Assembly: GCF_020165495.1 (NCBI RefSeq)
Contig: NZ_JAIUIE010000003.1
Span: forward strand, 186,001-250,000
Reading direction: 5' to 3'
Length of the DNA stretch: 64,000 bases
DNA from: Mesorhizobium sp. BR1-1-16
Lineage (GTDB): Bacteria > Pseudomonadota > Alphaproteobacteria > Rhizobiales > Kaistiaceae
Made by a program: the position numbers and the translations under genes. A model generated the notes under the pieces. That model was not told the origin of the DNA, searched no databases, and saw nothing but the letters and a program-made list of their open reading frames with translations. The first letter of the stretch is position 1; each line of letters opens with the position of its first letter. This document shows, piece after piece, positions 20,244 to 35,817 of this stretch.

Positions 20244-20344
20244 GGATGACTCCTTGGATCGCGGCGGCAGGCCCTGCGGGGATCAGCCCCGGTGTCGTGC
20301 CTGGCGGCTCGTGGGCGCGAGATATTGCCTGTGCCCGCCCGGCG

Positions 20345-21775: not shown

Positions 21776-21876
21776 CGGCAAGGGCGGGGCATTGACCGCA
21801 CTTCCTTCGCGCGTTCCGGTCCGCCACACAAGCGGCAATGCATAATCGAACGTTCCGGGTCCGTCGGTTCAGAAGG

Positions 21877-23316
21877 TCAGCGCTGGCGCCCTGCCCTTGC
21901 CGAAACCTCCACCACCGGCGCATAGGCGAAATCGCGCTCGAACGGAAATATCGGCCGCTGGCGGCGGCTGTTGCCGATCCGCGGGATATCCTGATCGACG
22001 ACGCCCTCGCTGAGCGCCATCAGGTTCGGATTGGCGATCGGGCCGAGATCCGGCGAGAGATAGCCAGACTTCACGACCACCAGATCGAAATCCGCCGGAT
22101 GAAAACCGAACCGCGCGAAGTCCGCGATGTCATGGAACGGACGTCGCCGCGCGGTGAGGATGATCGTCGCGGTCCCCGTTCGGACAACCGCTTCGCGTCG
22201 GGGGCCTTCCGCTTCGAGCAATGCGACGACCTCGGCCTCGATCGAGACCGGCTCGCTTGACGGATCGAGCGTGCCGCCGACCTGGAGCCATAGCCGCGCG
22301 CCGATCCCGGCGCGATAGGCCGCCTCGGTCGCCGGACGGTCGGCGATGCCGGCGAAGAGTGCGCTGCCCCGGCCCTGCGCGAGAAAGGCGGCGAGCACAT
22401 CCGCCCTGTCGCCGACGCCGCCGCCGGTCGGGTTGTCGCCGGAATCGGCCAGGATCACCGGGCGGGTCGCCGACGCATTGGCGAGCGCGAGGCATTCATC
22501 GACCGAAGTGGTGACAGGCCCGAAGGCGAATGCCTCGCGCGCCTCGAAATAAGCGGCGGCAAGCTTTTCCGCCTCAGTTGCCATTGCGGCGCGATCGTCC
22601 CCGGTCAGGATGATCGAGGCGGTGGCGCGCGGCTCATCGGCCCACACATAGCCGACCATGATCGAGGCATCGAAAATGCCGGACACCGCGTCGACAGCCG
22701 GCAACCGCGCATAGAGCGACCGCGCCGGCTCGTCGACCGTGCTGGTCCGCTCACCCGGCAGCAGCACCGGAACCTTGGCCCAGACGACGAAGGGATCGAT
22801 CTCGCCATTCAGCCGGCGATGGAGCATGGCGAGCGCGCGCCGCTTGGTCTCGGTGACATCGATATGCGGTGCCGTGCGATAGGCCGAGAACATGTCGATC
22901 GCGTCGATCACCCGCTGGCTGACATTGCCATGCAGATCATAGCTGACGGAGATCGGACAATCGGGGCCGACCACTTCGCGGGCTGCCGCACACCAGTCGC
23001 CCTCGCAGTCATCCATGCCGTCGACCTTCATCGCGCCATGCATCGCAAGATAGAGCCCGTCGATCGGCAGCGCCGCTGCGAGCCGCTCGAGAAACTCGGC
23101 ACGAAACGCCTCATAGGTGGCGCGCTCGACCGGGCCACCGGGGATCGTCCGCGCATGCAGCGTCGGCGCGACGTCCCAGTCCCATTCGGCGAGACAGGCG
23201 AAGTCTTCGGCCCCGGTCAGTTCGGCTCCGCGCAGCACCGTGAAATCGTCAGACGTCGCGAGAAGCGGATTGTAGGTCGAGCATTCGGTATGAATGCCGC
23301 CGACAGCGATCTTCAT
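21877..23316 (-). CDS. M81-family metallopeptidase (MlrC-like), copy 1
   Basis: Zinc enzyme of 479 residues related to MlrC, the linearised-microcystin peptidase. The predicted metal ligands are Asp127 and His129 (SYDLHGN) and His151 (APHIDVT). The AMHGAMKVDGMDDCEGD block at 91-107 and DSGDNPTGGGVGD also match the family. No signal peptide is present, so it acts in the cytoplasm. ATG 23316 overlaps the stop of the GH20 hexosaminidase gene as ATGA, which indicates translational coupling. The same operon region encodes a second, quite different M81 protein at 31904-33403. The natural substrate of most M81 proteins is unknown; a small peptide or acylated amino acid released after sugar hydrolysis is my inference. 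Confidence 0.88.
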   Translation of the reverse strand: MKIAVGGIHTECSTYNPLLATSDDFTVLRGAELTGAEDFACLAEWDWDVAPTLHARTIPGGPVERATYEAFRAEFLERLAAALPIDGLYLAMHGAMKVDGMDDCEGDWCAAAREVVGPDCPISVSYDLHGNVSQRVIDAIDMFSAYRTAPHIDVTETKRRALAMLHRRLNGEIDPFVVWAKVPVLLPGERTSTVDEPARSLYARLPAVDAVSGIFDASIMVGYVWADEPRATASIILTGDDRAAMATEAEKLAAAYFEAREAFAFGPVTTSVDECLALANASATRPVILADSGDNPTGGGVGDRADVLAAFLAQGRGSALFAGIADRPATEAAYRAGIGARLWLQVGGTLDPSSEPVSIEAEVVALLEAEGPRREAVVRTGTATIILTARRRPFHDIADFARFGFHPADFDLVVVKSGYLSPDLGPIANPNLMALSEGVVDQDIPRIGNSRRQRPIFPFERDFAYAPVVEVSARAGRQR

Positions 23317-25349
23317 GCGCCGTCTCCCGTTGCGTCCTGCCAGCCATAGAGGATCGGCATCAGCCCCGCGATGGAGCGGAAGCGCTCCCAAGATTTATCG
23401 GTGGCGCGCGTCCAGCCGCTTTCGGCGATTGCGGAAAGGCGCGGAAAGACAAGGCGGTCGAAGATGGCGCGATCGGCCATCGGTTCGGACCAGATACAGG
23501 CCTGGATGCCAAGGAAATGCGCCTGCTGCGCCTCGCTCCAGCCGGCGGTCGGATCGAAGCGATAGGTCTTTTCCGGGCTCGAATAGCCCGCCCAACCGGC
23601 GCCGGGCTCCGACCAGTCGGTCGCCTGGGACATATCGAGATAATAAGCCTGTCCCGGCGAGACGACGATGTCGTAGCCCTCGCCGGCGAGTTCCGCCGAA
23701 ACCTCGTGGTTGCGCCACCCGACGAGATAGACCTTGGCCTTGTCGATGACATGGCCATGCGCGGCCTCTTCCCAGCCGCCGGTGATGCAGCCGCGCGAGG
23801 CGAGAAATTTCTGGATGCGGGCGAGGAATTCGGCCTGCAGGACGGCCGCGCCCGAACCCTCGATCTCGTCGGCGCCGTGATGGTTGGTGACGACATTGTT
23901 CCGCTTGGCATGCGCTTCCGCCGCGGCCTTACCGGCTATGCTTTCCAGCCGCGCAAGCGCGATCGGCGACCCCGACCAGGCGCCGATCGGCACTTCATCG
24001 GCACCGATATGGACGATCTTGTCGGGGAAGAGCGCGATGATCTCGTCGAAGATCGTCTCGAGGATGGCGTAGGTCTCCTCGCGCGCCGGATTGAGGCAGT
24101 TGTTCGGGAAGCCCTGCACCGAGAAATACTCGCCGCTCTCGCCGGGATCGCGCAGCTCGGGGATCGCCTTCAGCATCGCATAGCAGTGACCGGGGATATC
24201 AATCTCCGGCACCACCGTGACGCCGAGCGACTTCGCATAGGCGACGATCTCGCGGATCGCCGCCTTGGTGTAGTAGCCGCCGGTCTTCTGCGGCCCGGTA
24301 CCCAGCAAGGGCGGCAAAGCGAGACCATGGCCGCGCCAGGCACCGATCTCCGTCAGAGCCGGATAAGCGTCGATCTCGATGCGCCAGGCCTCGTCATCGG
24401 AGAGATGCCAATGGAAGCGGTTCATCTTGTTCCAGGCGAGGATGCGGATCAGCGCCTTGATCTCACCGGTCGAATAGAACTGCCTGCTGACATCGAGATG
24501 GGTGCCGCGCCATGAAAGCGCCGGCGCATCGGCGATCATGCCCGAAGCCGGGAACAGGAACGTCGCGGGATGACGCAGCGCGCCGCGCAGCATCTGGCCG
24601 AGCGTGATCAGGCCATAGAGATAGCCGCCCTCCGAGCCTGCCGTGACGACGATGCCGTTCGGCGCGAAGTCGAGACGATAGCCTTCGCTGGAGATCCCCT
24701 TCCCGGCCTCGAAGGCTACCGGAAGTCCACCTTCCGACACCGGTCGCACCAGAGCATCGCCCGGGAACAGCGCATCCGACAGAGCCATGAAGCTGGCGGC
24801 CGCGGCCGCCGCTGCACCGCCGGATGCCTGGAGCGCCAGGCCCGCCGGGGTCGGCGCACGGCCGCTGATCCGGACATCCGCCGGCCACGGGATCACCGAG
24901 ACGGAAACCGGCGCGCTGACCGGAACGGGATAGACCACCGCGCCGCGCTTCAGCGGCGCGTTGTCGCCGCGGGCCTTCGTCGCCGCGACGCCCACCGGCG
25001 CCGTGCTGCCATCGGCGAAGGCGAGATAGGCGGCCGCCGCGCCATCGCTCCAATGGCGCAGCGGGTAGGAAAGCCCGTGCACCGTGACGGTCCAGGTGGC
25101 GCCGGGCGCCAGCACGAACCCTTCCGGTGGTTCAAATTCAGAGTGATTGGAAAGCCGCTCGACCAGAACGCCACCCTCGATCTCAGCCGCCGGATCGATC
25201 CGGGCCGGCCCGCTGACGCAGAGGCGAAACCCGCTGACGGGCCCGTCGGAGCGGTTGGTCAGCTTCAGCGTATAGGCAAGCGCCACACCCTCGGCGGGCG
25301 GTGTCCATTCGGTTTCGAGACGGAAAGCGGCGCGCGGGGGAAGGGTCAT
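23313..25349 (-). CDS. Beta-N-acetylhexosaminidase, GH20 family, cytoplasmic
   Basis: Exo-hexosaminidase of 678 residues removing terminal beta-linked GlcNAc or GalNAc. An N-terminal beta-sandwich (about 1-140, CHB_HEX-like) and a GH20b-like region (about 150-270) precede the catalytic barrel. Key blocks are FHWHLSDDEAWRIEI (312-326), VPEIDIPGHC and KIVHIGADEVP with the catalytic pair Asp451-Glu452. Canonical enzymes mostly have HIGGDE; here the second Gly is Ala. There is no signal peptide or lipobox, so it must act on imported oligosaccharides, consistent with the ABC importer encoded upstream in the same run. Its stop overlaps the start of M81 copy 1. Confidence 0.92.
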   Translation of the reverse strand: MTLPPRAAFRLETEWTPPAEGVALAYTLKLTNRSDGPVSGFRLCVSGPARIDPAAEIEGGVLVERLSNHSEFEPPEGFVLAPGATWTVTVHGLSYPLRHWSDGAAAAYLAFADGSTAPVGVAATKARGDNAPLKRGAVVYPVPVSAPVSVSVIPWPADVRISGRAPTPAGLALQASGGAAAAAAASFMALSDALFPGDALVRPVSEGGLPVAFEAGKGISSEGYRLDFAPNGIVVTAGSEGGYLYGLITLGQMLRGALRHPATFLFPASGMIADAPALSWRGTHLDVSRQFYSTGEIKALIRILAWNKMNRFHWHLSDDEAWRIEIDAYPALTEIGAWRGHGLALPPLLGTGPQKTGGYYTKAAIREIVAYAKSLGVTVVPEIDIPGHCYAMLKAIPELRDPGESGEYFSVQGFPNNCLNPAREETYAILETIFDEIIALFPDKIVHIGADEVPIGAWSGSPIALARLESIAGKAAAEAHAKRNNVVTNHHGADEIEGSGAAVLQAEFLARIQKFLASRGCITGGWEEAAHGHVIDKAKVYLVGWRNHEVSAELAGEGYDIVVSPGQAYYLDMSQATDWSEPGAGWAGYSSPEKTYRFDPTAGWSEAQQAHFLGIQACIWSEPMADRAIFDRLVFPRLSAIAESGWTRATDKSWERFRSIAGLMPILYGWQDATGDGA

Positions 25350-25388
25350 GCTGGTCTCACTGTCGTGAATGTCTTGAAGAAGAACGCG

Positions 25389-26255
25389 TCAATCGCCGAG
25401 CGGCTGGGTATCGTCGCCGTCGCGATTGATCATGAGCTGATGCTTGATCCGCCGCATGCTTTCGATGGCGCGGCCCTGCATGCGGGTCGCGACGGTCTGC
25501 GCAACGGCATCGATCATCGCAAGAAAGGCGTAGCGCGCCGATGACGGCCGGAGGATGTCGTCCTGTTCAGGCACGTCGATGGCAAGGAGCACATCGGCAT
25601 GCTCAGCAACGGGCGATCCCGGCCGCGTCAGGACGATCCGGTCGAGGTGATACTCGCCGGCGATCGCCAGCGTATTGGCCAGCGGCAGGTTTCGGCCGCT
25701 GGTCGAAGAGGCGATGATCACCGTCCCCTTGGGCGCGCCGGCGGTGCGCATCATCTGCGCCTGGTGATCGATCGAGGAGGTGACGCGGAGGCCGAGCCGG
25801 AACAGCCGCGTCTCCAGCTCGTTCGCGATCATCGACGAAGCGCCGCCCGAGCCGAAGGACAGGATGTAGCTGGAGCCGACGATCTTGTCGGCCGCCGCTT
25901 CGATCGCCAGCGGATCGATCTGCTCGAAGAACGAATAAAGCGTCGTCTGGGCGCAGTTGACGATGTGGCGGGTGATTTCCGTCGCGGTTTCCGGCCCGCT
26001 TGGCGGCACAAGATAGCGCCGCGCGATGAAGCGGCTCTGCGCCAGGCGCACCTTGAAGTCGGCGAAGCTCTGGCATCCGAGCCGGCGGCAGAAGCGCGTC
26101 ACCGTGGGCGGCGACGTATCGGCCCGCGCCGCGAGTTCGACGATCGATGCATTGACCGCCGACTGGACGTCGGACAGCACAAGATCGGCCAGCCGCCGTT
26201 CGGAACGGCTGAAGCTCTCCATATCCGCCTGCAAGAGCCCGACCAGATCGAGCAT
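25389..26255 (-). CDS. RpiR-family transcriptional regulator
   Basis: DNA-binding regulator of 288 residues. An N-terminal helix-turn-helix (about 1-75, ending DTSPPTVTRFCRRLGCQSF) is followed by a SIS sugar-phosphate-binding domain (ILSFGSGGASSMIANEL, VIIASSTSGRN). RpiR proteins respond to phosphorylated sugars or sugar acids. It lies between the ABC ATPase gene and the GH20 gene on the same strand and is the only regulator in the block, so it most likely controls this operon. ATG 26255 was chosen for its position before MLDLVGLLQADM; AGGAGG stands 12 bases upstream. A candidate operator is the inverted repeat at 31863-31883. Confidence 0.88.
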   Translation of the reverse strand: MLDLVGLLQADMESFSRSERRLADLVLSDVQSAVNASIVELAARADTSPPTVTRFCRRLGCQSFADFKVRLAQSRFIARRYLVPPSGPETATEITRHIVNCAQTTLYSFFEQIDPLAIEAAADKIVGSSYILSFGSGGASSMIANELETRLFRLGLRVTSSIDHQAQMMRTAGAPKGTVIIASSTSGRNLPLANTLAIAGEYHLDRIVLTRPGSPVAEHADVLLAIDVPEQDDILRPSSARYAFLAMIDAVAQTVATRMQGRAIESMRRIKHQLMINRDGDDTQPLGD

Positions 26256-26330
26256 GATGACCGAACTCCTCCTAAGACGCGCGCCAAAAAGGCTTTGGAA
26301 CCGCAAGCCCGAGGCGCCGCCGGACCCGTA

Positions 26331-27422
26331 TCAGGCGGCGAGCCCGACCGCGAGGCCCGCCTCGTCGAACAGATGACAGAGGGCCGGATCGACGCTGACC
26401 TCGATGTCGGTGTCATCAGCGACCGGAGGATCGCCGTCGAACAGCGCGACGAATGTGTCGCCGTTCGGCAGCGGCGCATAGGCGACCGTGTGGATGCCGA
26501 GCCGCTCGATGATGCCGGGCCGGATCGTCAGGCGGAAGCCGCCCGGCGCGTCGAGGCTGAGATGCTCGGGGCGAATGCCGACCTCCAGCCTCTGGCCGAC
26601 GAGAGCGGGGCTGCCGGCCCGCGGCAGGGTGATCAGCCCGAGCGGCCCGAGATCGACCGTGATGCCGGCGCCATCGGCCGCCGTGCAGGTGCCCTGCAGG
26701 AAATTCATTTTGGGATTGCCGATGAAGCCGGCAACGAAGCGATTGGCGGGCCGATGATAGAGGTCGAGCGGCGAGCCGACCTGCTCGATCTGGCCGGCGT
26801 TCAGGACGACGATCTTGTCGGCCATGGTGAGCGCCTCGACCTGATCATGCGTCACATAGATCATCGTCGCGCCGAGCTTCTTGTGCAGGCGTGTCAGCTC
26901 GATCCGCATGTCGGCGCGCAAGGCGGCATCAAGATTGGAGAGCGGCTCGTCGAACAGGAAGATCTTCGGTTCGCGCACGATGGCTCGGCCGATCGCGACG
27001 CGCTGGCGCTGGCCGCCGGAAAGCGTGCCGGGCCGCTGCTGGAGCCGGCTTTCAAGCTGCAGGACACGCGCCGCCTCGGAAACCCGGGTGCGGACCTGAT
27101 CCTCGGGCAGTTTCTCGACGCGCAGCGGAAAGGCGATGTTCTCGTAGACGCTCATATGCGGATAAAGCGCATAGGACTGGAACACCATCGCGATGCCGCG
27201 CTTCACCGGCGGCAGATCGTTGACGGTCTTGCCGGCAATGACGATCTCACCCGACGTGACCTCCTCGAGCCCGGCGATCATGCGCAGCAGCGTGGACTTG
27301 CCACATCCCGAAGGCCCGACGAAAACCACGAACTCGCCCTGCGTGACGTCGAGATCGACGCCCTTGATGACGGCGGTTCCCGCAAAGGACTTCTTCAGGC
27401 TGGACAGCGTGAGTTCGCTCAA
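26331..27422 (-). CDS. Sugar ABC transporter ATP-binding protein (UgpC/MsmK type)
   Basis: ATPase of 363 residues that powers a carbohydrate importer at the inner membrane. Walker [11 protein letters not shown]-loop [13 protein letters not shown], signature [10 protein letters not shown], Walker B IFLFDEP and the switch histidine in YVTHDQ are intact. A C-terminal TOBE/OB-type regulatory domain (about 235-360) includes VGIRPEHL. The start is best placed at TTG 27422, with CCGGAG nine bases upstream, giving the common SELTL N-terminus; the ATG at 27452 lies inside the palindromic repeat region. It is separated from the binding-protein gene by this repeat and followed by the RpiR gene. Confidence 0.92.
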
Positions 27423-27444
27423 GGGACGTTCTCCGGGGAAGAAG

Positions 27445-27541
27445 GCCCTCACCCGCCCTCTCCCGCGAGCGGGAGAGGGGGAAGAAAGGCGTGCGATCCA
27501 AACCGTGTCCCCTCCCCCGCAGCGCGGGAGAGGGCCAAGGT
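27445..27541. repeat. Palindromic interspersed element with two hairpins
   Basis: The first palindrome pairs CCCTCTCCCGC (27456-27466) with GCGGGAGAGGG (27469-27479), an 11-bp perfect stem. The second pairs CCCTCCCCCGC (27510-27520) with GCGGGAGAGGG (27524-27534), with one mismatch. GCCCTCACCC at the left and AAGGTAAGGGTG at the right form a looser outer inverted repeat. Such composite elements are dispersed in many Rhizobiales genomes. It lies directly after the binding-protein gene and before the ATPase gene, so it may stabilise the 3' end of the former or lower expression of the latter. Confidence 0.75.
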
Positions 27542-27549
27542 AAGGGTGC

Positions 27550-28764
27550 TTACTTGAACTGGTCGATCGACCCGGCCGCCTTGGTCAGCGCAGCGGCGGG
27601 CTCCGCGTTGCCGGTCACGACGGACTGGACCATGTCGATCATGGCGTTCTGGAAGCCCTTGTAGTCGAGGAACAGCGGCTCCGGGCCACCGAAGGCGATT
27701 CCGTCGAGGAACGGCTTCCAGCTCGGATCTTCCGAGACCAGCGTATCAACGCCGGCGACGGGACGCAGCGGCGTCAGGCCATGCGTCTTCTCATAGAGGA
27801 ACTGGTTTTCCGGGTTGGTCAGGAGCTTGGCGAGATCGATCGCCTGGTCCTCGACGCCCGTGCCCTTGAACACAGCCATGCTATCGGTGATGAGCAGCGT
27901 ACCGGCGCCCTTGGCCTGCGGTCCGACCGGCAGCGGCGCGACGCCCCACTGAATGTCCTTCGAGACCTGGTTGCGAACCCAGGGCCCGCCCTCGATCATC
28001 GCGACCTTGCCGTCCGAGAACAACTTGATCATGTCGTCCTGGTCATAGGCCGAAGGACCATCTTCGGAGACCGGAACGAGCTTCTTGATGAATTCGAGTG
28101 CCTGCAGGTTCTGCGGGCTGTCGAGCGTGATCTTTCCGTCGGCGTCGATGACCGTGCCGTCATTGGTGTACACGTAATGCAGGAACTGATGCATCGTGTT
28201 GTCCATCGTCTTGGCCGGCAGGCCGTAGCCGGCGATGCCGGTCTTGTCCTTGATGGCCTTGGCGTCGTTATAAAGCTCGTCCCAGGTCGTCGGCGGCTTG
28301 GCGGGGTCCAGGCCGGCCTTCTCGAACAAGGCCTTGTTCCAGAACAGCGCCTTCGTCGAGAAGGCGACCGGAATGCCCCAGGCCTCGTCCTTGAACGTCA
28401 CCGTGTCGACGATATGCGGATAATAGGCGGCCTTCTCGGCGTCCGTCATCGGGATCGGCACGATCAGATCGCTATCGGCGAACTGCTTCAGCGTGCGCGA
28501 GCCGACATAGGCAAGTCCGACCGGCGTGCCGGCGGCGGCGAGCGTCGTGATCTTGTCCTGGCACTGCGCCCAGCCAACGATCTCGACATTGACCTTGAAG
28601 CCCGGATTCTTGGCTTCCCAAGCCTTGATCAGGTCCGGATAGGTCTCGGCGATGGCATCGCCGCACTGGATCATGCTGACCGTCTTGTCCTCCGCGAAGG
28701 CCGAAACGGACATCGTCGAGAGGACGACGGCCGCGCCTGCGAGGAGTGTCCCGTAATGTTTCAT
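27550..28764 (-). CDS. Sugar ABC transporter substrate-binding protein
   Basis: Periplasmic binding protein of 404 residues, family 1 extracellular solute-binding (MalE-like). The signal peptide spans about 1-24 (TMSVSAFAE). The mature protein has the typical [40 protein letters not shown] and [12 protein letters not shown] blocks. Paired cysteines (about 34 and 66) could form a disulphide. ATG 28764 with GAGGG eight bases upstream was preferred over ATG 28779, since it starts the signal peptide with MKHYG. It follows the permease genes and precedes the palindromic element and the ATPase gene. The ligand is not predictable; an amino-sugar oligosaccharide fits the neighbouring GH20 enzyme. Confidence 0.92.
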
Positions 28765-28824
28765 TGCTCTTTCCCTCATTGTCTGGCCGCCCCTTTTCCC
28801 GGGACGGTTCGGATGCCTGGACCG

Positions 28825-29685
28825 CTACTGCTTGACCGCGCCGGCTGTGAGCCCGGCGACCAGATAGCGCTGCAGGAATATGAAGCCGATCATCACCGGG
28901 GCGATGCCGACGAAGCTCGCCGCCATCAGCTCGTTCCAGACCACGCGCTCCTTGCCGAAAAAGGCGAACAGCCCCACGGCGAGCGGCATGAATTCGGATT
29001 TCGAGTTGAAGGTCAGCGCGAAGATGAATTGCTGCGCATAGGCGCCGATGAAGGTGGCGAGCGCGACGACGAGAATGCCCGGCGCGGCGATCGGCAACAC
29101 GATGCGGCGCAGGATATAAAGCCGGCCGGCACCATCGACCCAGGCCGCCTCGTCCAGCTCGCGCGGAATGCGCAGGAGATAGGTTCGAAGCAGCCAGATC
29201 GCGGTCGGGATCAGGAAGGCGACTCCCGGGACGATCATCGCGAAATAGGTATTGAGCAGGCCCATCGAGCGCATCAGCCGATAGAGCGGGATGAGCAGCA
29301 CCGCGCCGGAGAACATGTTGACGGCGAGGAAGGCGCCGAGCAACGGCCCGCTGCCCGGAAACTCGAACCGCGCGAACGCATAGGCGGCCGGCACGACGAG
29401 GATCAGCACGGCGATGGTGGCGAGGCTCGAGATCAGCAGCGAATTGAAGATGTAGCGCCCGAGCAGCGGCACATGCTCCCACATCGTGAAATAGGCATCG
29501 AACGACCCATCCTCCGGCCAGAACCGATAGGGCGAGGAGAAGAGATGCGTCAGCGGCTTCAACGAAACCAGGAAGCCCTCGATGAAAGGCGACAGCACGA
29601 AGCCCAGAAACAGGAACATGCCGACATAGATCGCGACATATTCATACCATCTGTAACGGTCGATCATCGGGCGCCCGCTGCTCAT
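28825..29685 (-). CDS. Sugar ABC transporter permease (MalG-like)
   Basis: Inner-membrane permease of 286 residues with six predicted helices. The EAA loop that contacts the ATPase reads ELDEAAWVDGAGRLYILRRIVLPIAAPG. It starts at ATG 29685, overlapping the stop of the MalF-like gene as ATGA, so both permease subunits are made in step. It forms the channel with the MalF-like protein. Confidence 0.93.
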   Translation of the reverse strand: MSSGRPMIDRYRWYEYVAIYVGMFLFLGFVLSPFIEGFLVSLKPLTHLFSSPYRFWPEDGSFDAYFTMWEHVPLLGRYIFNSLLISSLATIAVLILVVPAAYAFARFEFPGSGPLLGAFLAVNMFSGAVLLIPLYRLMRSMGLLNTYFAMIVPGVAFLIPTAIWLLRTYLLRIPRELDEAAWVDGAGRLYILRRIVLPIAAPGILVVALATFIGAYAQQFIFALTFNSKSEFMPLAVGLFAFFGKERVVWNELMAASFVGIAPVMIGFIFLQRYLVAGLTAGAVKQ

Positions 29686-30566
29686 TTTGCCTCCCCCGAT
29701 GAGATCTTGCTGATGACGCGGAAGTAGAAGAAGCAGAACACCGACAGGAACAGACAGATCATCACGGCGCGGGCGGCACCCTCGCCATATTTGTAGCTGC
29801 CGATCGCCGTCTTGTAGGTGTCGATGATCATCGTCGTGGTCTGGCCGTTCGGTCCGCCCTGCGTCAGGATCCAGATGATGTCGAAGGAATTGAAGGTCGC
29901 GATCAGCGACAGCATCGACATCGTGACCAATGCCGGCACGATCAGCGGCAGCGTGATGCGGCGAAAGCGATAGAAGCGTCCGGCGCCGTCCGTCCAGGCT
30001 GCCTCATAGAGGTCCTTGGGGATCGACTGGATCGCGGCGAGCAGATAGAGCGTCACCAGCGGCACGCCGATCCACACATCGGTCAATATCGTCGCGCCGA
30101 AGGCCGTGCCGCCATAGGCCAGCCACGCCAGCGGCCGATCGAGCAGGCCGACATTCTGCAGGATGCCCGAGATCATCCCGAACTGGCCATTATACATCCA
30201 GCCCCACATGAAGATGCCGATGGCCATCGGCACGATCCACGGCGGCAGCGTCAACACGCGAAAGAGCGCGCGGCCAGGCACCAGCGCGTTCAGCAGCACA
30301 GCGCCGCAGGTGCCGATGATCATCTTGAGGCCGACGGAAAAGAAGGTCCACACGAAGGTGCGGATGATGACGGTGGCAAAGTCACCGCCGAAGATCTTCT
30401 GGTAATTGACCCAGCCGACCCACTTCACCGTCCGCCTGAGCGAGGCGTCGGTGAAGGAGAGCGTGAACGTATCGACGAGCGGATAGGCGACGATGAAGAG
30501 AATGTAGATCGTGGCCGGAAGCAGAAGCGCGAAGGCGAACAGCGTGGCACTTCGGGACCGCGTCAT
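29682..30566 (-). CDS. Sugar ABC transporter permease (MalF-like)
   Basis: Inner-membrane permease of 294 residues with six helices. The cytoplasmic EAA motif is DLYEAAWTDGAGRFYRFRRITLPL. The first helix follows a short basic N-terminus (MTRSRSATL). It is encoded just after the Gfo/Idh/MocA dehydrogenase gene (12 bases apart), which implies that the imported sugar or its product is the dehydrogenase substrate. Confidence 0.93.
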   Translation of the reverse strand: MTRSRSATLFAFALLLPATIYILFIVAYPLVDTFTLSFTDASLRRTVKWVGWVNYQKIFGGDFATVIIRTFVWTFFSVGLKMIIGTCGAVLLNALVPGRALFRVLTLPPWIVPMAIGIFMWGWMYNGQFGMISGILQNVGLLDRPLAWLAYGGTAFGATILTDVWIGVPLVTLYLLAAIQSIPKDLYEAAWTDGAGRFYRFRRITLPLIVPALVTMSMLSLIATFNSFDIIWILTQGGPNGQTTTMIIDTYKTAIGSYKYGEGAARAVMICLFLSVFCFFYFRVISKISSGEAK

Positions 30567-30578
30567 CCGCCCGCCCCG

Positions 30579-31736
30579 TCAGCTGTCGCGGCCGGAAAGC
30601 GCCGCATCGAAGCGCTTCCAGGTCTCGGACATGTCCACGACGGTCTTGCTGCGGCGCGCTTCGTCCATGGCGAGGGCCAGCAGGCCGGCTTCGAGCGCAT
30701 TGACCACCGAAACCGGCAGCGGTGCGTCGTTCAGCATATGCGCGCCAATATCGCGCGCCATCTGTTCATCCGCGCCGTAATGAACCGAGAGTTCTGAGCC
30801 GCTATAAGTGGTGTCGATCAGTTTTGACGAGGTGCGGGCGTCATGCACCTTGAAGAAATTGCGGACGAAATCACCCTCAGCCATACCCTTGGCGCCGATC
30901 ACGCAGAACCGGCGGTATTCATCGGGCACGTTCAGATTGGTGTGGAAGGTCATCGAGGCGCCGTTCGCATATTCCACGATTGCCGTCTGGAAATCGATGA
31001 TGTCGGCATCGCTGTCGAACACCTTGTCGGTTCCCATCCAGCCGCTTGGCTTGCGATGATAGACCTCGGTGTCGTTGATGCCGAGTCCTTCCGGCGCATT
31101 GCTTGGCACGAAGCTGCGCTTTCCGCCGAAGCTAGCAACACGCGCCGGGCGAGCGCCCATGACGCCATTGTACAAATCGAGATCGTGGCAGCACTTCTCG
31201 AGCATGAACGAGCCCGAATACTTCTCATAGCGCCGCCAATCGCGCATGAAGAACGCGCCATGATAGGGCGCGATATGCTCGGAGGCCTCAATCGAGACGA
31301 TATCGCCGATGAGCCCGTCCTTCTGGGCCTTGCGCAGGTCGACATAGAGCGGCGCATAGCGCAGCACGAGACCGACCATGACGTTGTCGGAGCCGAATTC
31401 CGCGATCAGCCGTGCGAGCTCCATCGTCTCCTCGACCGTCGTCACGACGGGCTTTTCGGAGAAGACCTTCACGCCGCTATCGAGACCGGTACGGATATGG
31501 CCGAGATGTAGGTGATTGGGCGAGCCGACCATCAAAAGGTCGAGCGTCTCGCCGGCCAGGAGATCCTCGAGTGACCCGTAGGCCTTCCCGACGGGGACGT
31601 CGAACTGCTTCGTATAGGAAAGCCCGGCCGGCTCGGGGTCGACATAGCCGACCACATCGAAATCCGGGAGCGAGGCGGAAAAAATGCGCGCCAGATAGCC
31701 CAGCCGATAGCCAAGCCCGACAATGCCGACTTTCAT
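30579..31736 (-). CDS. Gfo/Idh/MocA-family oxidoreductase
   Basis: NAD(P)-dependent dehydrogenase of 385 residues, cytoplasmic. The Rossmann motif is VGLGYRLGYLA near the N-terminus, with EKPVV supplying the catalytic Lys of the family at about 95. The C-terminal substrate domain includes GSFMLEKCCHDLDLYNG, with the usual His-Asp pair. Members oxidise inositols, glycosides or amino sugars; the 3-keto route of glycoside breakdown is one possibility. ATG 31736 has AGGGG upstream. A good sigma-70 promoter and an inverted repeat lie between 31814 and 31883. This is the first gene of the ABC-transporter transcription unit. Confidence 0.88.
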   Translation of the reverse strand: MKVGIVGLGYRLGYLARIFSASLPDFDVVGYVDPEPAGLSYTKQFDVPVGKAYGSLEDLLAGETLDLLMVGSPNHLHLGHIRTGLDSGVKVFSEKPVVTTVEETMELARLIAEFGSDNVMVGLVLRYAPLYVDLRKAQKDGLIGDIVSIEASEHIAPYHGAFFMRDWRRYEKYSGSFMLEKCCHDLDLYNGVMGARPARVASFGGKRSFVPSNAPEGLGINDTEVYHRKPSGWMGTDKVFDSDADIIDFQTAIVEYANGASMTFHTNLNVPDEYRRFCVIGAKGMAEGDFVRNFFKVHDARTSSKLIDTTYSGSELSVHYGADEQMARDIGAHMLNDAPLPVSVVNALEAGLLALAMDEARRSKTVVDMSETWKRFDAALSGRDS

Positions 31737-31813
31737 CGAATCCCCTGCTTCATCAAGACAGCCGCTTGGACGGGCATCAGCGCCGACCAGCCGCTTTGTA
31801 AATTCTTTCCACG

Positions 31814-31841
31814 ATCATGCCGCAAGACGCACCCCTGTCAA
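31814..31841 (-). promoter_or_regulatory. Sigma-70 promoter of the sugar ABC operon
   Basis: On the minus strand, -35 TTGACA (31836-31841) is separated by 16 bases from -10 CATGAT (31814-31819). It lies 78 bases before the Gfo/Idh/MocA start. Confidence 0.6.
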
Positions 31842-31862
31842 GCACTCTTTTGCAGTTTCTCC

Positions 31863-31883
31863 GCAAGAATGCCCCGTTCTTGC
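31863..31883. promoter_or_regulatory. Inverted repeat GCAAGAA-n7-TTCTTGC, candidate operator or terminator
   Basis: Perfect 7-bp arms around a 7-base spacer, 20 bases after the stop of M81 copy 2 and 22 bases upstream of the -35 hexamer of the next unit. A further TCTTGCGG word (minus strand) overlaps the spacer of the promoter. It has no T-run, which favours an operator (RpiR or other) over a terminator. Confidence 0.5.
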
Positions 31884-31903
31884 ATACAATCTGAAAGGCG
31901 TTT

Positions 31904-33403
31904 TCACTTCACCGTCAAAGTTTGATCGACAAGCGCAAAAGGATCCTCGACCCGCGGCCAGATCGGCCGGTCGAGCTTGCGATAGGCGGTAAGGCGGGGA
32001 TTGGACGGATAAGGCGCGCCCGCGTCGATATAGACGATCTCCGCTGCGATCGGCGCGAAGCCCGCGTGGAAGTGATTGGTCGATTTCACCAGCAGCATCG
32101 CCTTCGCCATCGGATCGATGCCAAGATTGGTGAAGATGTCCGGCTCGAAGGTCTGGGTGCGGTTGGTATTGAGGATGACGTCGATCGTCGTTCCGACGAG
32201 GCGGACTACTGCCGCCGGACCGAGCGTCACGCGGCTGCGGCCGAAGCTTTGCCAGCCCTCCTCCACCGCCCTGATCACATCGACCTCGGCATCGACGGGC
32301 GCGCCGCCATCGGGGCCGGCCTTGCCGCCAAAGCGGAGCTGGATGCGGGCGCCCTCGCCGGCTGCCAGACAAAAGGTCGTCGCGACCGGGTCCCAGATCG
32401 TCGCGACCGCAACATCCTGCATGCCGCGCTCGATGATGCGGCGAAGAATCAGCGTCCCGTCACCGGCAACGCCGCCACCTGGATTATCCCAGGTATCCGC
32501 GACGACGACAGGCTTCCCCGGCTTTGTCGCGGCGAGCGCCGAGGCACGGTCGAGGCCGTCCTCGATACCCAATTGCGGCATCATGGTCTGGCCGCGCAGC
32601 GAGAAGATCTCAAGCCCGAGACGCCGCGCCAGCGCGTCGCCGCCCACTCGGTCGTCCTCGGTGACGACGAGCAGGCGCGTGCCGAGCTCCGGCACGTCGC
32701 CGGCCATGAAGCCATGGATGAGCGAGATCGACAGGACGCCGTCATGCCCCTCCATCGCCTTGACGCGGTCGATAAAGGAACGCATCGGCTCGCGGCTAGT
32801 CGGAAACACTTCGATCATTCGGCAATCGAAGGTCGAGATCACCGGCTTGATTGCGCCGCGGATCGCGCGGATGGCGAGATCGACGACATGCTCGCCGCGC
32901 TCGTAGAAATCGGTGTGGGGAAACTCGAGAAAAGCTGCGAGGATATCGCTGTTGGCGACGCGCTTCGCCGTCAGATGGCTGTGTGGATCGAGCTCCGCCG
33001 CGATGACGACATCCGGACCGACGATCGCGCGAATGCGTTCGAGCAGGTCGCCCTCGCAGTCGTCATAACCCTGCGCCACCATCGCGCCATGCAGTCCAAG
33101 CACGACGCCGTCCACCGGCAGCGCCGCACGGAGCTGACCCAAAATCTCGTCGCGCAATCCCTCATAGGCCGCCCGCTGGATCAGACCGCCAGGTTCGGCC
33201 CATGTCGCAGTGCCCTCGACGAGATCGATCCCGTCCGCCTCGGCCCGGCGGCGCAGCGCGACGATCGGCGAGGAGCAGAGCGTCGGCGTTGCCGGATGCT
33301 CGCCGGGCGCGGCATAGAAGGCCATCTCGAAGCTGGCCCGGTCAGTCGGCACCGGCGAGAATGTGTTGGTCTCGGTCGCGAGCGACGCTGTGAAGATCCG
33401 CAT
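31904..33403 (-). CDS. M81-family metallopeptidase (MlrC-like), copy 2
   Basis: Zinc enzyme of 499 residues, cytoplasmic, no signal peptide. Predicted ligands are Asp139 and His141 (ELDPHSH) and His163 (FPHTDFY). The family block GLHGAMVAQGYDDCEGD is at 103-119 and DTWDNPGGGVAGDGT is also present. It differs strongly from copy 1 (21877-23316), for example TETNTF instead of HTECSTY near the N-terminus, so the two are ancient paralogues and not a recent duplication. It starts 5 bases after the RidA stop. The first of the two M81 steps may act on a different bond or stereoisomer; this is inference. Confidence 0.88.
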   Translation of the reverse strand: MRIFTASLATETNTFSPVPTDRASFEMAFYAAPGEHPATPTLCSSPIVALRRRAEADGIDLVEGTATWAEPGGLIQRAAYEGLRDEILGQLRAALPVDGVVLGLHGAMVAQGYDDCEGDLLERIRAIVGPDVVIAAELDPHSHLTAKRVANSDILAAFLEFPHTDFYERGEHVVDLAIRAIRGAIKPVISTFDCRMIEVFPTSREPMRSFIDRVKAMEGHDGVLSISLIHGFMAGDVPELGTRLLVVTEDDRVGGDALARRLGLEIFSLRGQTMMPQLGIEDGLDRASALAATKPGKPVVVADTWDNPGGGVAGDGTLILRRIIERGMQDVAVATIWDPVATTFCLAAGEGARIQLRFGGKAGPDGGAPVDAEVDVIRAVEEGWQSFGRSRVTLGPAAVVRLVGTTIDVILNTNRTQTFEPDIFTNLGIDPMAKAMLLVKSTNHFHAGFAPIAAEIVYIDAGAPYPSNPRLTAYRKLDRPIWPRVEDPFALVDQTLTVK

Positions 33404-33408
33404 GACGA

Positions 33409-33783
33409 TCAGCCGAGCGGCGCGTAGGCGATGGCTTCGATCTCGATCTTGATGTCGATCATCAGCTTGGCCTCGACAGTGGTGCGGGCTGGCGGCTCGG
33501 CCGGAAAATAGGTGGCGTAGACGGCGTTGAAGGCGGCGAAGTCGTTCGCGTCGGTGAGGATGACGAAGGTCTTCACCACCTGGTCGAGCGTGCAGCCGGC
33601 CAGCGCCAGAGCCGCCTTGACGTTCTCCATCACCTGCCGCGTCTGCGCCTCGATGCCACCGGCAACAACAGCGCGGTTGCTATCGGTCGGGACCTGGCCG
33701 GAGATATAGACAAAGTCGCCCGCCCGAACGGCCGGCGACAGCGGAACATGAGAGGCTCCGTAAACCGTTTTCAACTTTGCCAC
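33409..33783 (-). CDS. RidA-family imine/enamine deaminase
   Basis: Small cytoplasmic enzyme of 124 residues of the Rid (YjgF/YER057c/UK114) family, which hydrolyses reactive imines such as 2-aminoacrylate. Recognisable blocks are GDFVYISGQVPTD, the central QTRQVMENVKAALALAG and the C-terminal PARTTVEAKL, with the Arg that binds the substrate carboxylate. I set the start at GTG 33783, 5 bases from GGGAGA; TTG 33786 would be too close. It is the promoter-proximal gene before M81 copy 2, divergent from the SDR and DSD1-like genes. The presence of an imine-handling protein suggests that the pathway includes a PLP-dependent amine step. Confidence 0.87.
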   Translation of the reverse strand: MAKLKTVYGASHVPLSPAVRAGDFVYISGQVPTDSNRAVVAGGIEAQTRQVMENVKAALALAGCTLDQVVKTFVILTDANDFAAFNAVYATYFPAEPPARTTVEAKLMIDIKIEIEAIAYAPLG

Positions 33784-33920
33784 CAATCTCTCCCGCTCTG
33801 AAGCACCGTGATGCCTGGATTGCTATGTAAATTCCTGCGCTGGCGGCCCGTCAAGCGCCAAATCATGTTGCTTTTTTTCATTTTGGCGCGAAGCTGGCGC
33901 CTAGAATGAGGGGACGCGCG

Positions 33921-34682
33921 ATGTTTGGAATGACGGGGAAGCATGTCGTGATCAGCGGGGCCGGCGGCGGCATTGGCCGCGCCCTCGTCGCCCTGTTCCG
34001 CGAATGCGGAGCGCGCGTGACGGCGTGCGACCGCGATGCGGATCTGCTGGCGGCGCTGGAGGGCGTCACGACAGAGGTCTTCGAACTCACCAACCGGGCG
34101 GCGACGACCGCTGCCATGGAGCGGATCATCGCCCGGCAGGGCGCGCCAGACGCCATCATCGGCAATGCCGGCTTCACGCGGGCCGAACGGATGGTCGATG
34201 TCGGACCGGAGGCCTGGGACAGCGAACTCGCCATCAACCTGACGGGCACCTATAATCTCGTCGCCCCTAGCCTTCCCGCGATGATCGCGGCAGGCGGCGG
34301 ATCGATCGTCCTCGTTTCCTCCGTCAACGCCCTCGCCCATTTCGGCAATCCGGCCTATTCCGCCGCCAAGGCCGGGCTCAACGCTTATGCACGCGCCCTC
34401 GCCGTCGAGCATGGCCGCCACGGCATCCGAGCCAACTGCATCTGCCCCGGTTCCGTGCGCACGCCCGCCTGGGATCACCGCATCGAGAAGCAGCCGGAAT
34501 TGCTCGACGAAGTGGTGCGCTATTATCCGCTTGCCCGCCTTGTGACGCCGGAAGAGGTTGCGCAGACGGCGCTGTTCCTCGCCTCGCCGCTCTCATCGGG
34601 CATCACCGGAACGGCCATCGCCGTCGATGCCGGTCTTACGGCCGGAAACCGCCGCTTCGTCAGTGAAGTTCTCGGCGGCTGA
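33921..34682 (+). CDS. Short-chain dehydrogenase/reductase
   Basis: Classical SDR of 253 residues. Nucleotide motif SGAGGGIG is at 12-19, the NAG turn at 82-84 (GNAGF), and the catalytic residues are Ser133/Ser134, Tyr146 and Lys150 (YSAAK). C-terminal GTAIAVDAGLTAG is typical. Substrate unknown; by context a hydroxy-acid or amino-sugar derivative. ATG 33921 was chosen with GAGGGG upstream; ATG 33930 is an alternative. It is divergent from the RidA gene and probably shares the regulatory gap 33784-33920 with it. The PLP-enzyme gene follows 70 bases downstream. Confidence 0.85.
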   Translation: MFGMTGKHVVISGAGGGIGRALVALFRECGARVTACDRDADLLAALEGVTTEVFELTNRAATTAAMERIIARQGAPDAIIGNAGFTRAERMVDVGPEAWDSELAINLTGTYNLVAPSLPAMIAAGGGSIVLVSSVNALAHFGNPAYSAAKAGLNAYARALAVEHGRHGIRANCICPGSVRTPAWDHRIEKQPELLDEVVRYYPLARLVTPEEVAQTALFLASPLSSGITGTAIAVDAGLTAGNRRFVSEVLGG

Positions 34683-34752
34683 TACGCTGCTTGACCACGG
34701 CCGAAGCGTCGGCAAAGCCTTGGACAGTTGTCGCGACATCAAAGGACATCGG

Positions 34753-35817
34753 ATGCCCACCCATATCGACCAGTTGGACACGCCGGCCGTCCTGATCGAC
34801 ATCGATCGCGTCGAGGCCAATCTTACCCGCACCCAGACCTATGCCGATGCACATGGCCTGAAGCTTCGCCCGCACATCAAGACCCACAAGCTGCCGCGCT
34901 TTGCCCGGCGACAGGTCGAACTCGGCGCCATCGGCATCACCTGCCAGAAACTCGGTGAAGCCGAAGTCATGGCAGATGCCGGCATTGAGGATATCCTGCT
35001 GCCTTACAACATCCTGGGCACGGAGAAGCTGCACCGGCTGCGGCGCCTCGCAGAACGCGTCGCGCTCGCGGTCACCGCCGACAGCCTCGTCACCATCGAG
35101 GGCTATGCACGCACCTTCGCCGACGCCGCGTCACCGCTTCGCGTGCTCGTCGAATGCGATACGGGCATGGGGCGTTGCGGCGTGCAGACGCCCGACGAGG
35201 CCGTGGCGCTGGCGCGCGCGATCGATGCCAGCTCGGGCCTCGCCTTTGCCGGCCTGATGACCTATCCCCCCGCAGGCGCACCGGCTGCGGCACGGGCCAT
35301 CCTAGCGGCCATGGCGGAAGCGCTGCGCAGCGCGGGCCTGCCGCCGACAATGATCTCGACCGGCGGCACGCCCGATCTCTGGTCGGCGCATGAAACGACG
35401 ATCGCTACCGAATATCGGCCTGGCACCTATATCTATCTCGATCGCTACCAGGTGGCCAAAGGGGTCGGCACCATGGACGACTGCGCGCTGACGGTGCTTG
35501 CGACCGTGGTGAGCAGCCCGACACCGGATCGCGCCGTGATCGACGCCGGCTCGAAGGCTCTGACCAGCGATCTGCTTGGTCTTTCGGGATATGGCACCGT
35601 GCTCGGCTATCCTGATGCAGTGATTGCAGGGCTCAGCGAGGAACACGGCACGATCGATCTCTCGGGGTCGGCGCTGAAGCCCGCGATCGGCGAGCGGCTG
35701 CGCATCGTGCCGAACCACGCCTGCCCGGTATCGAACCTCTTTGACCGGGTCCATCTCGTCTCGGCCGACCATGTGGTCGCAACCGAGATCGTCGCGGCGC
35801 GCGGCCGGGTCGACTGA
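34753..35817 (+). CDS. DSD1/D-threonine aldolase-family PLP enzyme
   Basis: Alanine-racemase-fold PLP enzyme of 354 residues. The PLP lysine lies in RPHIKTHK (Lys43). A metal site of the D-serine dehydratase type is seen as HAC (His322, Cys324) in VPNHACPVSNL. Related enzymes cleave D-threonine to glycine and acetaldehyde, or dehydrate D-serine with zinc. The His-x-Cys pair points to the dehydratase side, though D-threo-3-hydroxyaspartate enzymes also fit. D-serine dehydration gives 2-aminoacrylate, the RidA substrate, and ridA is divergently encoded nearby. ATG 34753 has AAAGGA six bases upstream. It converges with the next gene with 19 bases between. Confidence 0.87.
   Translation: MPTHIDQLDTPAVLIDIDRVEANLTRTQTYADAHGLKLRPHIKTHKLPRFARRQVELGAIGITCQKLGEAEVMADAGIEDILLPYNILGTEKLHRLRRLAERVALAVTADSLVTIEGYARTFADAASPLRVLVECDTGMGRCGVQTPDEAVALARAIDASSGLAFAGLMTYPPAGAPAAARAILAAMAEALRSAGLPPTMISTGGTPDLWSAHETTIATEYRPGTYIYLDRYQVAKGVGTMDDCALTVLATVVSSPTPDRAVIDAGSKALTSDLLGLSGYGTVLGYPDAVIAGLSEEHGTIDLSGSALKPAIGERLRIVPNHACPVSNLFDRVHLVSADHVVATEIVAARGRVD

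Follow-up and report, generated by a model that had tools for sequence, protein, structure and literature searches.

What substrate is taken up and degraded by a gene block that joins a sugar importer to a GH20 hexosaminidase, two M81 metallohydrolases and a DSD1-type pyridoxal 5'-phosphate (PLP) enzyme? Such a block lies in the window analyzed here, a 64-kb stretch of contig 23 in the 5.2-Mb genome of Mesorhizobium sp. BR1-1-16. The original prediction, made from the sequence of the stretch, was that an amino sugar joined to an unusual amino acid or peptide is imported whole, that the sugar is cut off inside the cell and that the peptide part is broken down. We find that the cluster is a real, conserved and apparently jointly controlled catabolic unit. 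Comparison of its proteins and of related loci makes it probable that the block encodes an intracellular oxidative pathway for an N-acetylhexosamine disaccharide, resembling the ong pathway of Pseudoalteromonas with an M81 protein in the place of the deacetylase OngB; this moderate confidence applies to the type of pathway, and our confidence in the exact identity of the sugar is lower. We also put forward, tentatively, that the clade of one of the M81 proteins (M81b), whose members are filed as metallopeptidases, could represent new N-acetylhexosaminate de-N-acetylases that replace OngB in an alphaproteobacterial oxidative, non-phosphorylated pathway in which a neutral sugar is oxidized inside the cell and no lytic polysaccharide monooxygenase (LPMO) is needed.

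Organization of the gene block

Ten genes run in one direction from 33786 to 21877, in the order RidA, M81b, Gfo/Idh, PermA, PermB, SBP, ATPase, RpiR, GH20 and M81a, and the SDR and DSD1 genes form a divergent pair on the opposite strand from 33906. These are the main proteins considered here, and each is encoded by an uninterrupted open reading frame (ORF) at the coordinates listed below. Families were assigned with Pfam and NCBIfam profile models run on the window proteins, and structural relatives were found by comparison with the PDB. The profile models recover every member of the predicted gene list: the ATP-binding cassette (ABC) importer, GH20, two M81 proteins, Gfo/Idh/MocA, RpiR, RidA, and the divergent SDR and DSD1.

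33409-33786, minus strand: RidA-type imine/enamine hydrolase, OngD-like, first gene of the ten-gene run (PF01042, E = 2.1e-33; TIGR00004 over cut-off)
31904-33403, minus strand: M81b, MlrC-like M81 metallohydrolase, proposed N-acetylhexosaminate deacetylase (Pfam; PDB 7ylq; AlphaFold model; zinc-ligand positions)
30579-31736, minus strand: Gfo/Idh/MocA dehydrogenase with an EKP motif (Pfam; best PDB match 8qc2, N-terminal part only)
29682-30566, minus strand: ABC sugar permease A, PermA (PF00528)
28825-29685, minus strand: ABC sugar permease B, PermB (PF00528 at cut-off; neighborhood)
27550-28779, minus strand: sugar-type ABC substrate-binding protein, SBP (PF01547, SBP_bac_1; sugar-binding relatives in the PDB; N-terminus resembling an export signal by eye)
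26331-27452, minus strand: MalK/UgpC-type ABC ATPase (PF00005; NCBIfam UgpC subfamily over cut-off)
25389-26306, minus strand: HexR-like RpiR, proposed regulator of both units (PF01418, HTH_6, and PF01380, SIS; HexR the best NCBIfam model, below cut-off; motif co-occurrence)
23313-25349, minus strand: GH20 beta-N-acetylhexosaminidase (PF00728, E = 7.1e-96; closest PDB entry 6ezr, Vibrio Nag2, E = 4.9e-96)
21877-23316, minus strand: M81a, second M81 metallohydrolase (Pfam; PDB 7ylq, E = 5.3e-44; in a clade with GH20-linked M81a proteins)
33906-34682, plus strand: SDR dehydrogenase, proposed to oxidize C1 of the amino sugar (PF13561/PF00106; distribution over importer types)
34558-35817, plus strand: DSD1-type fold-III PLP enzyme, proposed D-hexosaminate ammonia-lyase (PF01168, Ala_racemase_N, and PF14031, D-ser_dehydrat; PDB relatives)

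The two M81 proteins match PF07364 with E = 2e-97 and 8.3e-85. M81a starts at the ATG at 23316, which overlaps the GH20 stop as ATGA, and PermA and PermB share the same kind of start/stop overlap; the two overlaps suggest coupling. Because the 5' overhang of the long DSD1 ORF is not conserved, the likely start of DSD1 is the ATG at 34753. The larger intergenic gaps lie ahead of Gfo/Idh (167 bp) and of the ATPase ORF (97 bp). The gap between SBP and ATPase (27453-27549) contains, by eye, two GC-rich stretches resembling inverted repeats, a possible RNA element for setting expression at different levels. A second RpiR gene, matching the first at about 41%, directly follows SDR in the Kaistia relatives L013-L015; the window (34683-34752) and the relative L012 lack it.

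Conservation of the gene set

A GH20 alignment was scanned over the GTDB genomes, and the best 80 of 563 loci were kept. M81b homologs of at least 55% identity are found in 25 of these 80 loci and M81a homologs of at least 57% identity in 20. The loci that combine GH20 with M81b or M81a come from Kaistia, Ensifer, Sinorhizobium, Rhizobium, Agrobacterium, Allorhizobium, Chelativorans, Pelagibacterium, Devosia, Pleomorphomonas, Aminobacter and other Rhizobiales; of two Agrobacterium loci, one has M81a only (L089) and one has both proteins (L094). The recurring order is Gfo-PermA-PermB-SBP-ATPase, then DSD1-M81b facing RidA-RpiR-SDR-GH20-M81a (e.g. L150, L153, L154, L157 and L162).

A survey with M81b as query recovered 78 places in 72 of the 297 genomes of the order (E ≤ 1e-100), 64 of which were mapped (60 fetched loci and four Kaistia regions; the remaining 14 are the window itself and 13 other places). 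DSD1 was counted at 45% identity or more within the fetched stretch. Where M81b is at least 54% identical to that of the window (n = 41), DSD1 accompanies it in 25 loci, RidA in 28, SDR in 32, RpiR in 33 and GH20 in 16; below 54% (n = 23) the corresponding counts are 1, 1, 0, 2 and 0, the 54% line having been drawn after the list was seen. Since the loci above this line are rich in these genes and those below it are nearly without them, the linkage of the module genes exceeds chance. The GH20 and M81b sets overlap in genomes (L074 and L152 are identical in M81b) and are not independent. The gene set thus stays together across Hyphomicrobiales, and the possibility that these genes are not conserved together elsewhere, by which the original prediction was to be judged, does not hold. 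In a quick tree search of the M81 proteins, a 51-row clade contains all 34 DSD1-linked M81b rows (SH-aLRT 92, below the 95 mark), and M81a forms one clade of 16 rows with a support of 100. Like Gfo/Idh, M81a tracks the GH20 importer module.

The genes are distributed within genomes in several ways. Several Ensifer and Sinorhizobium loci have M81b without an adjoining DSD1. In Agrobacterium genomosp. 13 (L089) and Rhizobium nepotum (L091), M81b and DSD1 are missing in cis, and a small RidA-DSD1-M81b operon lies away from the GH20 cluster in both genomes (L221:10415-13505 and L222:8359-11029, respectively); the L221 operon is near repABC-type genes. The Devosia-type loci L151 and L159 are without M81a. 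Four further loci (L161, L164, L165 and L169) carry M81b relatives (53-56%) with a distant DSD1-like gene (26-28%) and additional M81 genes, three of them with paired ABC ATPases, and perhaps represent the same chemistry acting on another substrate.

A shared motif in the two promoter regions

The 13-bp sequence GAATTTACAWAGC, allowing at most one mismatch, has just two occurrences in the window (0.01 expected): one precedes Gfo/Idh and the other lies between RidA and SDR.

33822-33834, minus strand: GAATTTACATAGC, operator-like motif in the RidA/SDR divergent promoter region
31793-31805, minus strand: GAATTTACAAAGC, operator-like motif upstream of Gfo/Idh

The whole genome holds three exact copies of the 13-mer; the third sits inside a long ORF and was regarded as a chance occurrence. 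No perfect palindrome common to both promoter regions was found, and the element they have in common is AATTTACA.

In four Kaistia relatives with the GH20 module, all copies of AATTTACA in 19.5 kb are confined to the same two regions. AATTTACA still stands before both modules in L013 and L014 despite rearrangement of the modules, and in L015 it occurs only between RidA and SDR, the region before Gfo there having a form with one mismatch. The two Kaistia loci that lack the GH20 module (L129 and L130) do not contain AATTTACA. Among 47 loci, the motif lies upstream of module genes in 7/7 loci whose RpiR is at least 60% identical to that of the window, a line set after part of the data had been seen, as compared to 2/40 of the others (Fisher p = 5.7e-7, which overstates the case because the seven loci above this line are four from Kaistia and three from one other family, f6). 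Because the motif tracks RpiR similarity across the loci, the HexR-like RpiR is likely the regulator of both units via AATTTACA. Together, the conserved neighborhoods and the common motif uphold the view of the block as one catabolic unit that is apparently co-regulated.

Gene neighborhoods suggest a probable sugar-acid substrate

TRAP importers usually carry carboxylates. Five loci combine a TRAP importer with M81b and RpiR (L148, L160, L190 on a Phaeobacter plasmid, L202 and L203), and no SDR, GH20 or Gfo was found in any of the five. DSD1 and RidA are present in four of them; the exception is L148, in which no RidA was found and the gene at the DSD1 position encodes a protein of only 22% similarity. 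The neighboring kinase best matches models of 2-keto-3-deoxygluconate (KDG) kinase in L190 (172 bits) and L202 (300 bits; cut-off 400), a similar kinase occupies the same place in L203 (by tblastn only), and in L204 a KdgK-like gene (264 bits) lies beside DSD1 without M81. The SDR follows the importer type: it is present in 29/30 CUT1-type sugar-ABC loci with M81b and in 0/5 TRAP loci. The lone sugar-ABC locus without SDR (L147) has RidA-SDR-DSD1 elsewhere in its genome (L223). Thirteen of the CUT1 loci form a group without GH20; L158, whose stretch contains no GH20, was assigned to the GH20 group.

DSD1 and RidA also occur without M81 beside amino-acid ABC importers (L191 in Chelatococcus, L204 and L206), as expected if the acylated compound is the substrate of M81 and DSD1 requires a free amine. 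On pSymB of Sinorhizobium meliloti (L189) the two genes are 3 kb apart, again without M81, and in L218 an Amidohydro_1/3 protein accompanies SDR, Gfo/Idh, DSD1 and RidA in a stretch where no M81 was found. At L201:8123-11749, a sulfatase comes after SDR and DSD1. It resembles the C-terminus of N-sulphoglucosamine sulphohydrolase weakly, at a score below cut-off, and possibly the same end pathway is fed there from a sulfated amino sugar.

These neighborhoods favor a sugar acid over a peptide as the substrate. Taken together, they suggest that DSD1 acts on a free amino-acid-like compound, that M81b produces this compound from an N-acylated carboxylate, that the carboxylate arises from a neutral sugar through SDR and that the sugar comes from GH20. 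N-acetylhexosaminate would fit each of these steps, and KDG would be the product. The D-hydroxy amino acid of the original prediction survives in altered form: DSD1 and RidA do suit a D-3-hydroxy-amino acid, and the likelier candidate for it is the amino-sugar acid itself (D-glucosaminate or one of its isomers), with M81b more likely a de-N-acylase than a peptidase. Both readings appear likelier because M81b and DSD1, mostly with RidA, travel with TRAP importers, at three loci together with KDG-kinase-like genes. The same recurrence of the core with TRAP importers and KDG-kinase-like genes leaves the predicted peptide part unsupported, and we rejected peptide degradation as the main explanation on this ground.

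Sequence and structure of the enzymes

M81b contains DUF1485 and MlrC_C domains, which place it in the M81 peptidase family, and scores 366.8 bits against the NCBIfam MlrC model, below the cut-off of 999. Its match to the MlrC structure 7ylq has E = 1.5e-105. The AlphaFold model of M81b (mean pLDDT 84.5) superimposes on 7ylq_A with template modeling (TM) scores of 0.82/0.85 and 38% identity in the structural alignment, and a fold search with this model returned only two known M81 structures (three chains) below E = 0.001, with no link to other deacetylases. The Glu of the Adda-Glu bond that MlrC cuts is D-configured. This Adda-Glu bond is an N-acyl bond. PMC12474180 places a set of residues round the zinc in MlrC. 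Mapped onto the 7ylq alignment by a constant numbering offset, these residues correspond to E11, H105, D139, H141 and H163 of M81b, all conserved, and the five positions are invariant in 23 aligned proteins, including five M81a proteins. In M81a of the window, an Asp and three His align with the zinc positions.

GH20 carries the HIGxDE motif, in which D451-E452, presumably the catalytic pair, are invariant in six sequences. By eye it has no evident signal peptide, as originally predicted, and it suits the predicted release of an amino sugar inside the cell. The closest PDB relatives of DSD1 include D-threonine aldolase (4v15, E = 1.4e-55) and D-threo-3-hydroxyaspartate dehydratase (3wqc, E = 1.7e-41), and hydroxyaspartate aldolase is also close. 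Against the BhcC equivalog, DSD1 scores 216 bits, far below the cut-off of 690, and we rejected the BhcC/hydroxyaspartate pathway on this score. The family matches of SBP are not specific for one sugar. Elsewhere in the same genome, about 34 kb from the cluster, there is a KDG-kinase-like gene (165.7 bits, below cut-off) whose product shares 49% identity with the Phaeobacter kinase across the matched region; two Eda proteins and one NagA are encoded as well, all over cut-off.

Proposed pathway

As summarized in PMC9537276, the GH20 of the ong cluster of Pseudoalteromonas prydzensis ACAM 620 frees N-acetylglucosaminate (GlcNAc1A), OngB deacetylates it, OngC, a fold-type III PLP enzyme, yields KDG and ammonia, and KdgK phosphorylates the KDG. 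The same account describes RidA (OngD) as essential, with a role given as unknown, and an RpiR protein (OngR) as a repressor, and it reports the complete pathway from Gammaproteobacteria and one betaproteobacterium. OngB is described as a D-aminoacylase-like enzyme (PMC12017989). In Aeromonas, matches to OngB and OngC are described as only distant or absent.

In the pathway proposed from neighborhoods and protein families, the CUT1-type ABC importer of the window would bring in the disaccharide, most likely chitobiose or an oxidized form of it, and GH20 would cleave it in the cytoplasm, freeing an N-acetylhexosamine. SDR, perhaps Gfo/Idh too, would oxidize C1 to give N-acetylhexosaminate. M81b would strip the N-acetyl group from this acid, as MlrC opens the N-acyl bond of Glu, and DSD1 with RidA would eliminate ammonia from the D-amino-acid-like hexosaminate to yield KDG. 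A KDG kinase and a 2-keto-3-deoxy-6-phosphogluconate (KDPG) aldolase encoded elsewhere would finish the route. Besides the importer-linked neighborhoods, the known ong parallel and the motif before both units, we count in its favor the amidohydrolase of L218, the separate RidA-DSD1-M81b operons of the two genomes that lack M81b and DSD1 in cis, and the KDG-kinase-like, Eda and NagA genes of this genome. We found no report of an M81 protein as a sugar deacetylase, or of such a pathway in Alphaproteobacteria, in literature judged mostly at the level of titles and abstracts.

A number of observations weigh against this pathway. M81a and Gfo/Idh are left without an assigned step, no KDG kinase is encoded in the window's cluster, and all KDG-kinase model scores lie below cut-off. 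In 55 of the 80 GH20 loci no M81b was found within the examined stretch, and GH20 itself is patchy in the genus (5/14 genomes). The nearest GH20 relatives outside the genus (64-69%) are mostly beside Opp-type importers, and the Kaistia GH20 may therefore have been recruited from an Opp-type importer system. DSD1 is missing from the stretch in 16/41 loci with M81b at or above the 54% line (at least L013 is cut off there) and is absent in cis from 8/13 GH20-less sugar-ABC loci (L131, L134-L137, L139, L140 and L145), six of these eight genomes carrying a DSD1 of 63-65% elsewhere. Another Kaistiaceae genome (G013) has GH20-M81a-Gfo-ABC without an M81b or DSD1 ortholog, so a simpler use of this module must exist. 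In seven of nine Devosia loci (L063, L064, L066-L069 and L072), DSD1 directly precedes GH20 with no M81 in the stretch. Finally, an M29 aminopeptidase gene and an MFS gene adjoin the block in Kaistia, an arrangement that would suit peptides.

In the window these two genes (18990-21838, minus strand) come after M81a, and they are kept beside the modules through the rearrangements in six Kaistia relatives (L012-L015, L129 and L130). A 62% M29 protein is also encoded beside DSD1-GH20 in Devosia L067, and in several Devosia loci the DSD1-GH20 pair is followed by a GNAT acetyltransferase gene. A sugar-efflux-like MFS gene adjoins M81a in Rhizobiaceae loci, and no counterpart was found in the window's cluster.

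Alternative explanations

The same chemistry might serve a different substrate, either an N-acetylhexosamine of galacto or manno configuration or, in place of chitobiose, another beta-N-acetylhexosaminyl sugar. GH20 enzymes accept both N-acetylglucosamine (GlcNAc) and N-acetylgalactosamine (GalNAc), the SBP matches are unspecific, and the top-scoring kinase model in L190 describes a bifunctional enzyme for KDG and 2-keto-3-deoxygalactonate (KDGal). We nevertheless consider another sugar rather unlikely. Among solved GH20 structures Vibrio Nag2 comes closest, this type of GH20 is found in Rhizobium near Opp-type importers and a ROK protein resembling NagC/Mlc, and KdgK-type models score best in L202 and L204. 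A change in the chemistry itself would follow if DSD1 were a retro-aldolase, like D-threonine aldolase or BhcC, that splits hexosaminate into glycine and a tetrose without deamination. That the closest solved relatives of DSD1 are D-threonine aldolase and hydroxyaspartate aldolase favors such an activity, which we hold to be improbable given that RidA and the KDG-kinase-like neighbors suit elimination and not aldol cleavage, and that OngC is described as deaminating (PMC9537276).

Two other explanations were weighed. In one, an intact glycopeptide or muropeptide enters the cell, GH20 splits off the sugar, M29 and the M81 proteins digest the peptide, and DSD1 handles a D-Ser or D-Thr residue. 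It would account for the M29 and MFS genes that stay adjacent in the Kaistia relatives and draws on the peptide-type bond cut by the M81 protein MlrC, on the deamination of D-Ser and D-Thr that PMC9537276 reports for OngC itself, and on the Opp-type importers at two M81b-DSD1-RidA-RpiR loci (L146 and L188), which are neutral or favor larger substrates. The core recurs with TRAP or other sugar importers in loci without GH20 or M29, however, and KDG-kinase-like neighbors make no sense for Ser and Thr, since these give pyruvate or 2-oxobutyrate; we assign this explanation little probability. In the other, two unrelated modules happen to lie side by side in Kaistia: a disaccharide module of ABC, GH20, M81a and Gfo, and a module of RidA, M81b, SDR and DSD1 for an N-acyl-D-amino acid. 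The modules do occur apart (L129, L130 and L016), and their relative arrangement has changed in L013 and L014. Yet they are joined in many genera, and the common motif stays before both after the rearrangement in L013 and L014, which makes a chance juxtaposition quite unlikely.

Implications

If the oxidative N-acetylhexosamine pathway is correct, proteins annotated as M81 metallopeptidases gain a testable function in sugar metabolism and RidA gains a concrete catabolic partner. The oxidative amino-sugar route would extend from mostly marine Gammaproteobacteria to soil- and plant-associated Hyphomicrobiales, with its core genes reaching a Phaeobacter plasmid, and would provide a second route for chitin-type sugars, leading to KDG, acetate and ammonia and bypassing GlcNAc-6-phosphate.

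Comparison with known systems

Among characterized proteins, the microcystinase MlrC is a clear homolog of M81b with the same fold and the five zinc-ligand positions kept; it differs in sequence (38% identity) and in setting, which is microcystin degradation there and sugar catabolism here. The solved GH20 closest to that of the window, Vibrio Nag2 (6ezr), is an intracellular chitobiose enzyme, and we know of no M81 or DSD1 in its pathway. DSD1 is homologous over its catalytic domains to D-threonine aldolase, BhcC and D-threo-3-hydroxyaspartate dehydratase, and is set apart from BhcC by its low equivalog score. The GlcNAc route predicted for the archaeon Natrarchaeobius, as outlined in PMC12343721, would likewise convert an amino sugar to an acid inside the cell and has a RutC/RidA-type gene nearby; it would begin, however, with a CE14 deacetylase and continue with glucose dehydrogenase, a kinase and a homolog of glucosaminate-6-phosphate ammonia-lyase.

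The closest parallel is the ong cluster. The original prediction knew of no described pathway with this gene set, and the published outline of ong, with GH20, RpiR, RidA, a fold-type III PLP enzyme and KdgK, qualifies that claim; its deacetylase is of the D-aminoacylase type, and the block here has M81 in that place. We looked for ong clusters among DSD1 relatives across the phylum, where 111/397 genomes have a match, and examined 40 places. No ong cluster was recognized in these 40 fetched loci, most of which were judged by tblastn with our own query set, so that one could be missed. The best candidate (L234) was rejected, its N-termini resembling a DAO-type oxidoreductase, an aldehyde dehydrogenase and LysR (by eye, 60 residues each).

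Set beside the ong cluster as far as it is described in these accounts, the window block likewise unites GH20, RpiR and RidA in one cluster and has a fold-type III PLP enzyme; DSD1, a candidate counterpart of OngC, belongs to the same superfamily. Non-phosphorylated deacetylation followed by deamination, with KDG as product, would also be common to both under the pathway proposed here. The differences are several. The deacetylase is the D-aminoacylase-type OngB there and would be M81 here; in a search for OngB confined to the cluster, no amidohydrolase was found among its proteins. Import is by an SSS symporter and TonB receptors there and by a CUT1 ABC importer here (TRAP in relatives), and GH20 is periplasmic there and apparently cytoplasmic here. 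The ong system includes an LPMO, whereas a search for AA10 in this genome gave no match (PF03067, 0 matches). The KDG kinase is encoded in the ong cluster and lies about 34 kb away here, adjacent to the core in the relatives L190 and L202-L204, and SDR and Gfo/Idh belong to the window block. The window block is thus a variant of the ong logic rather than a member of the ong clusters as defined.

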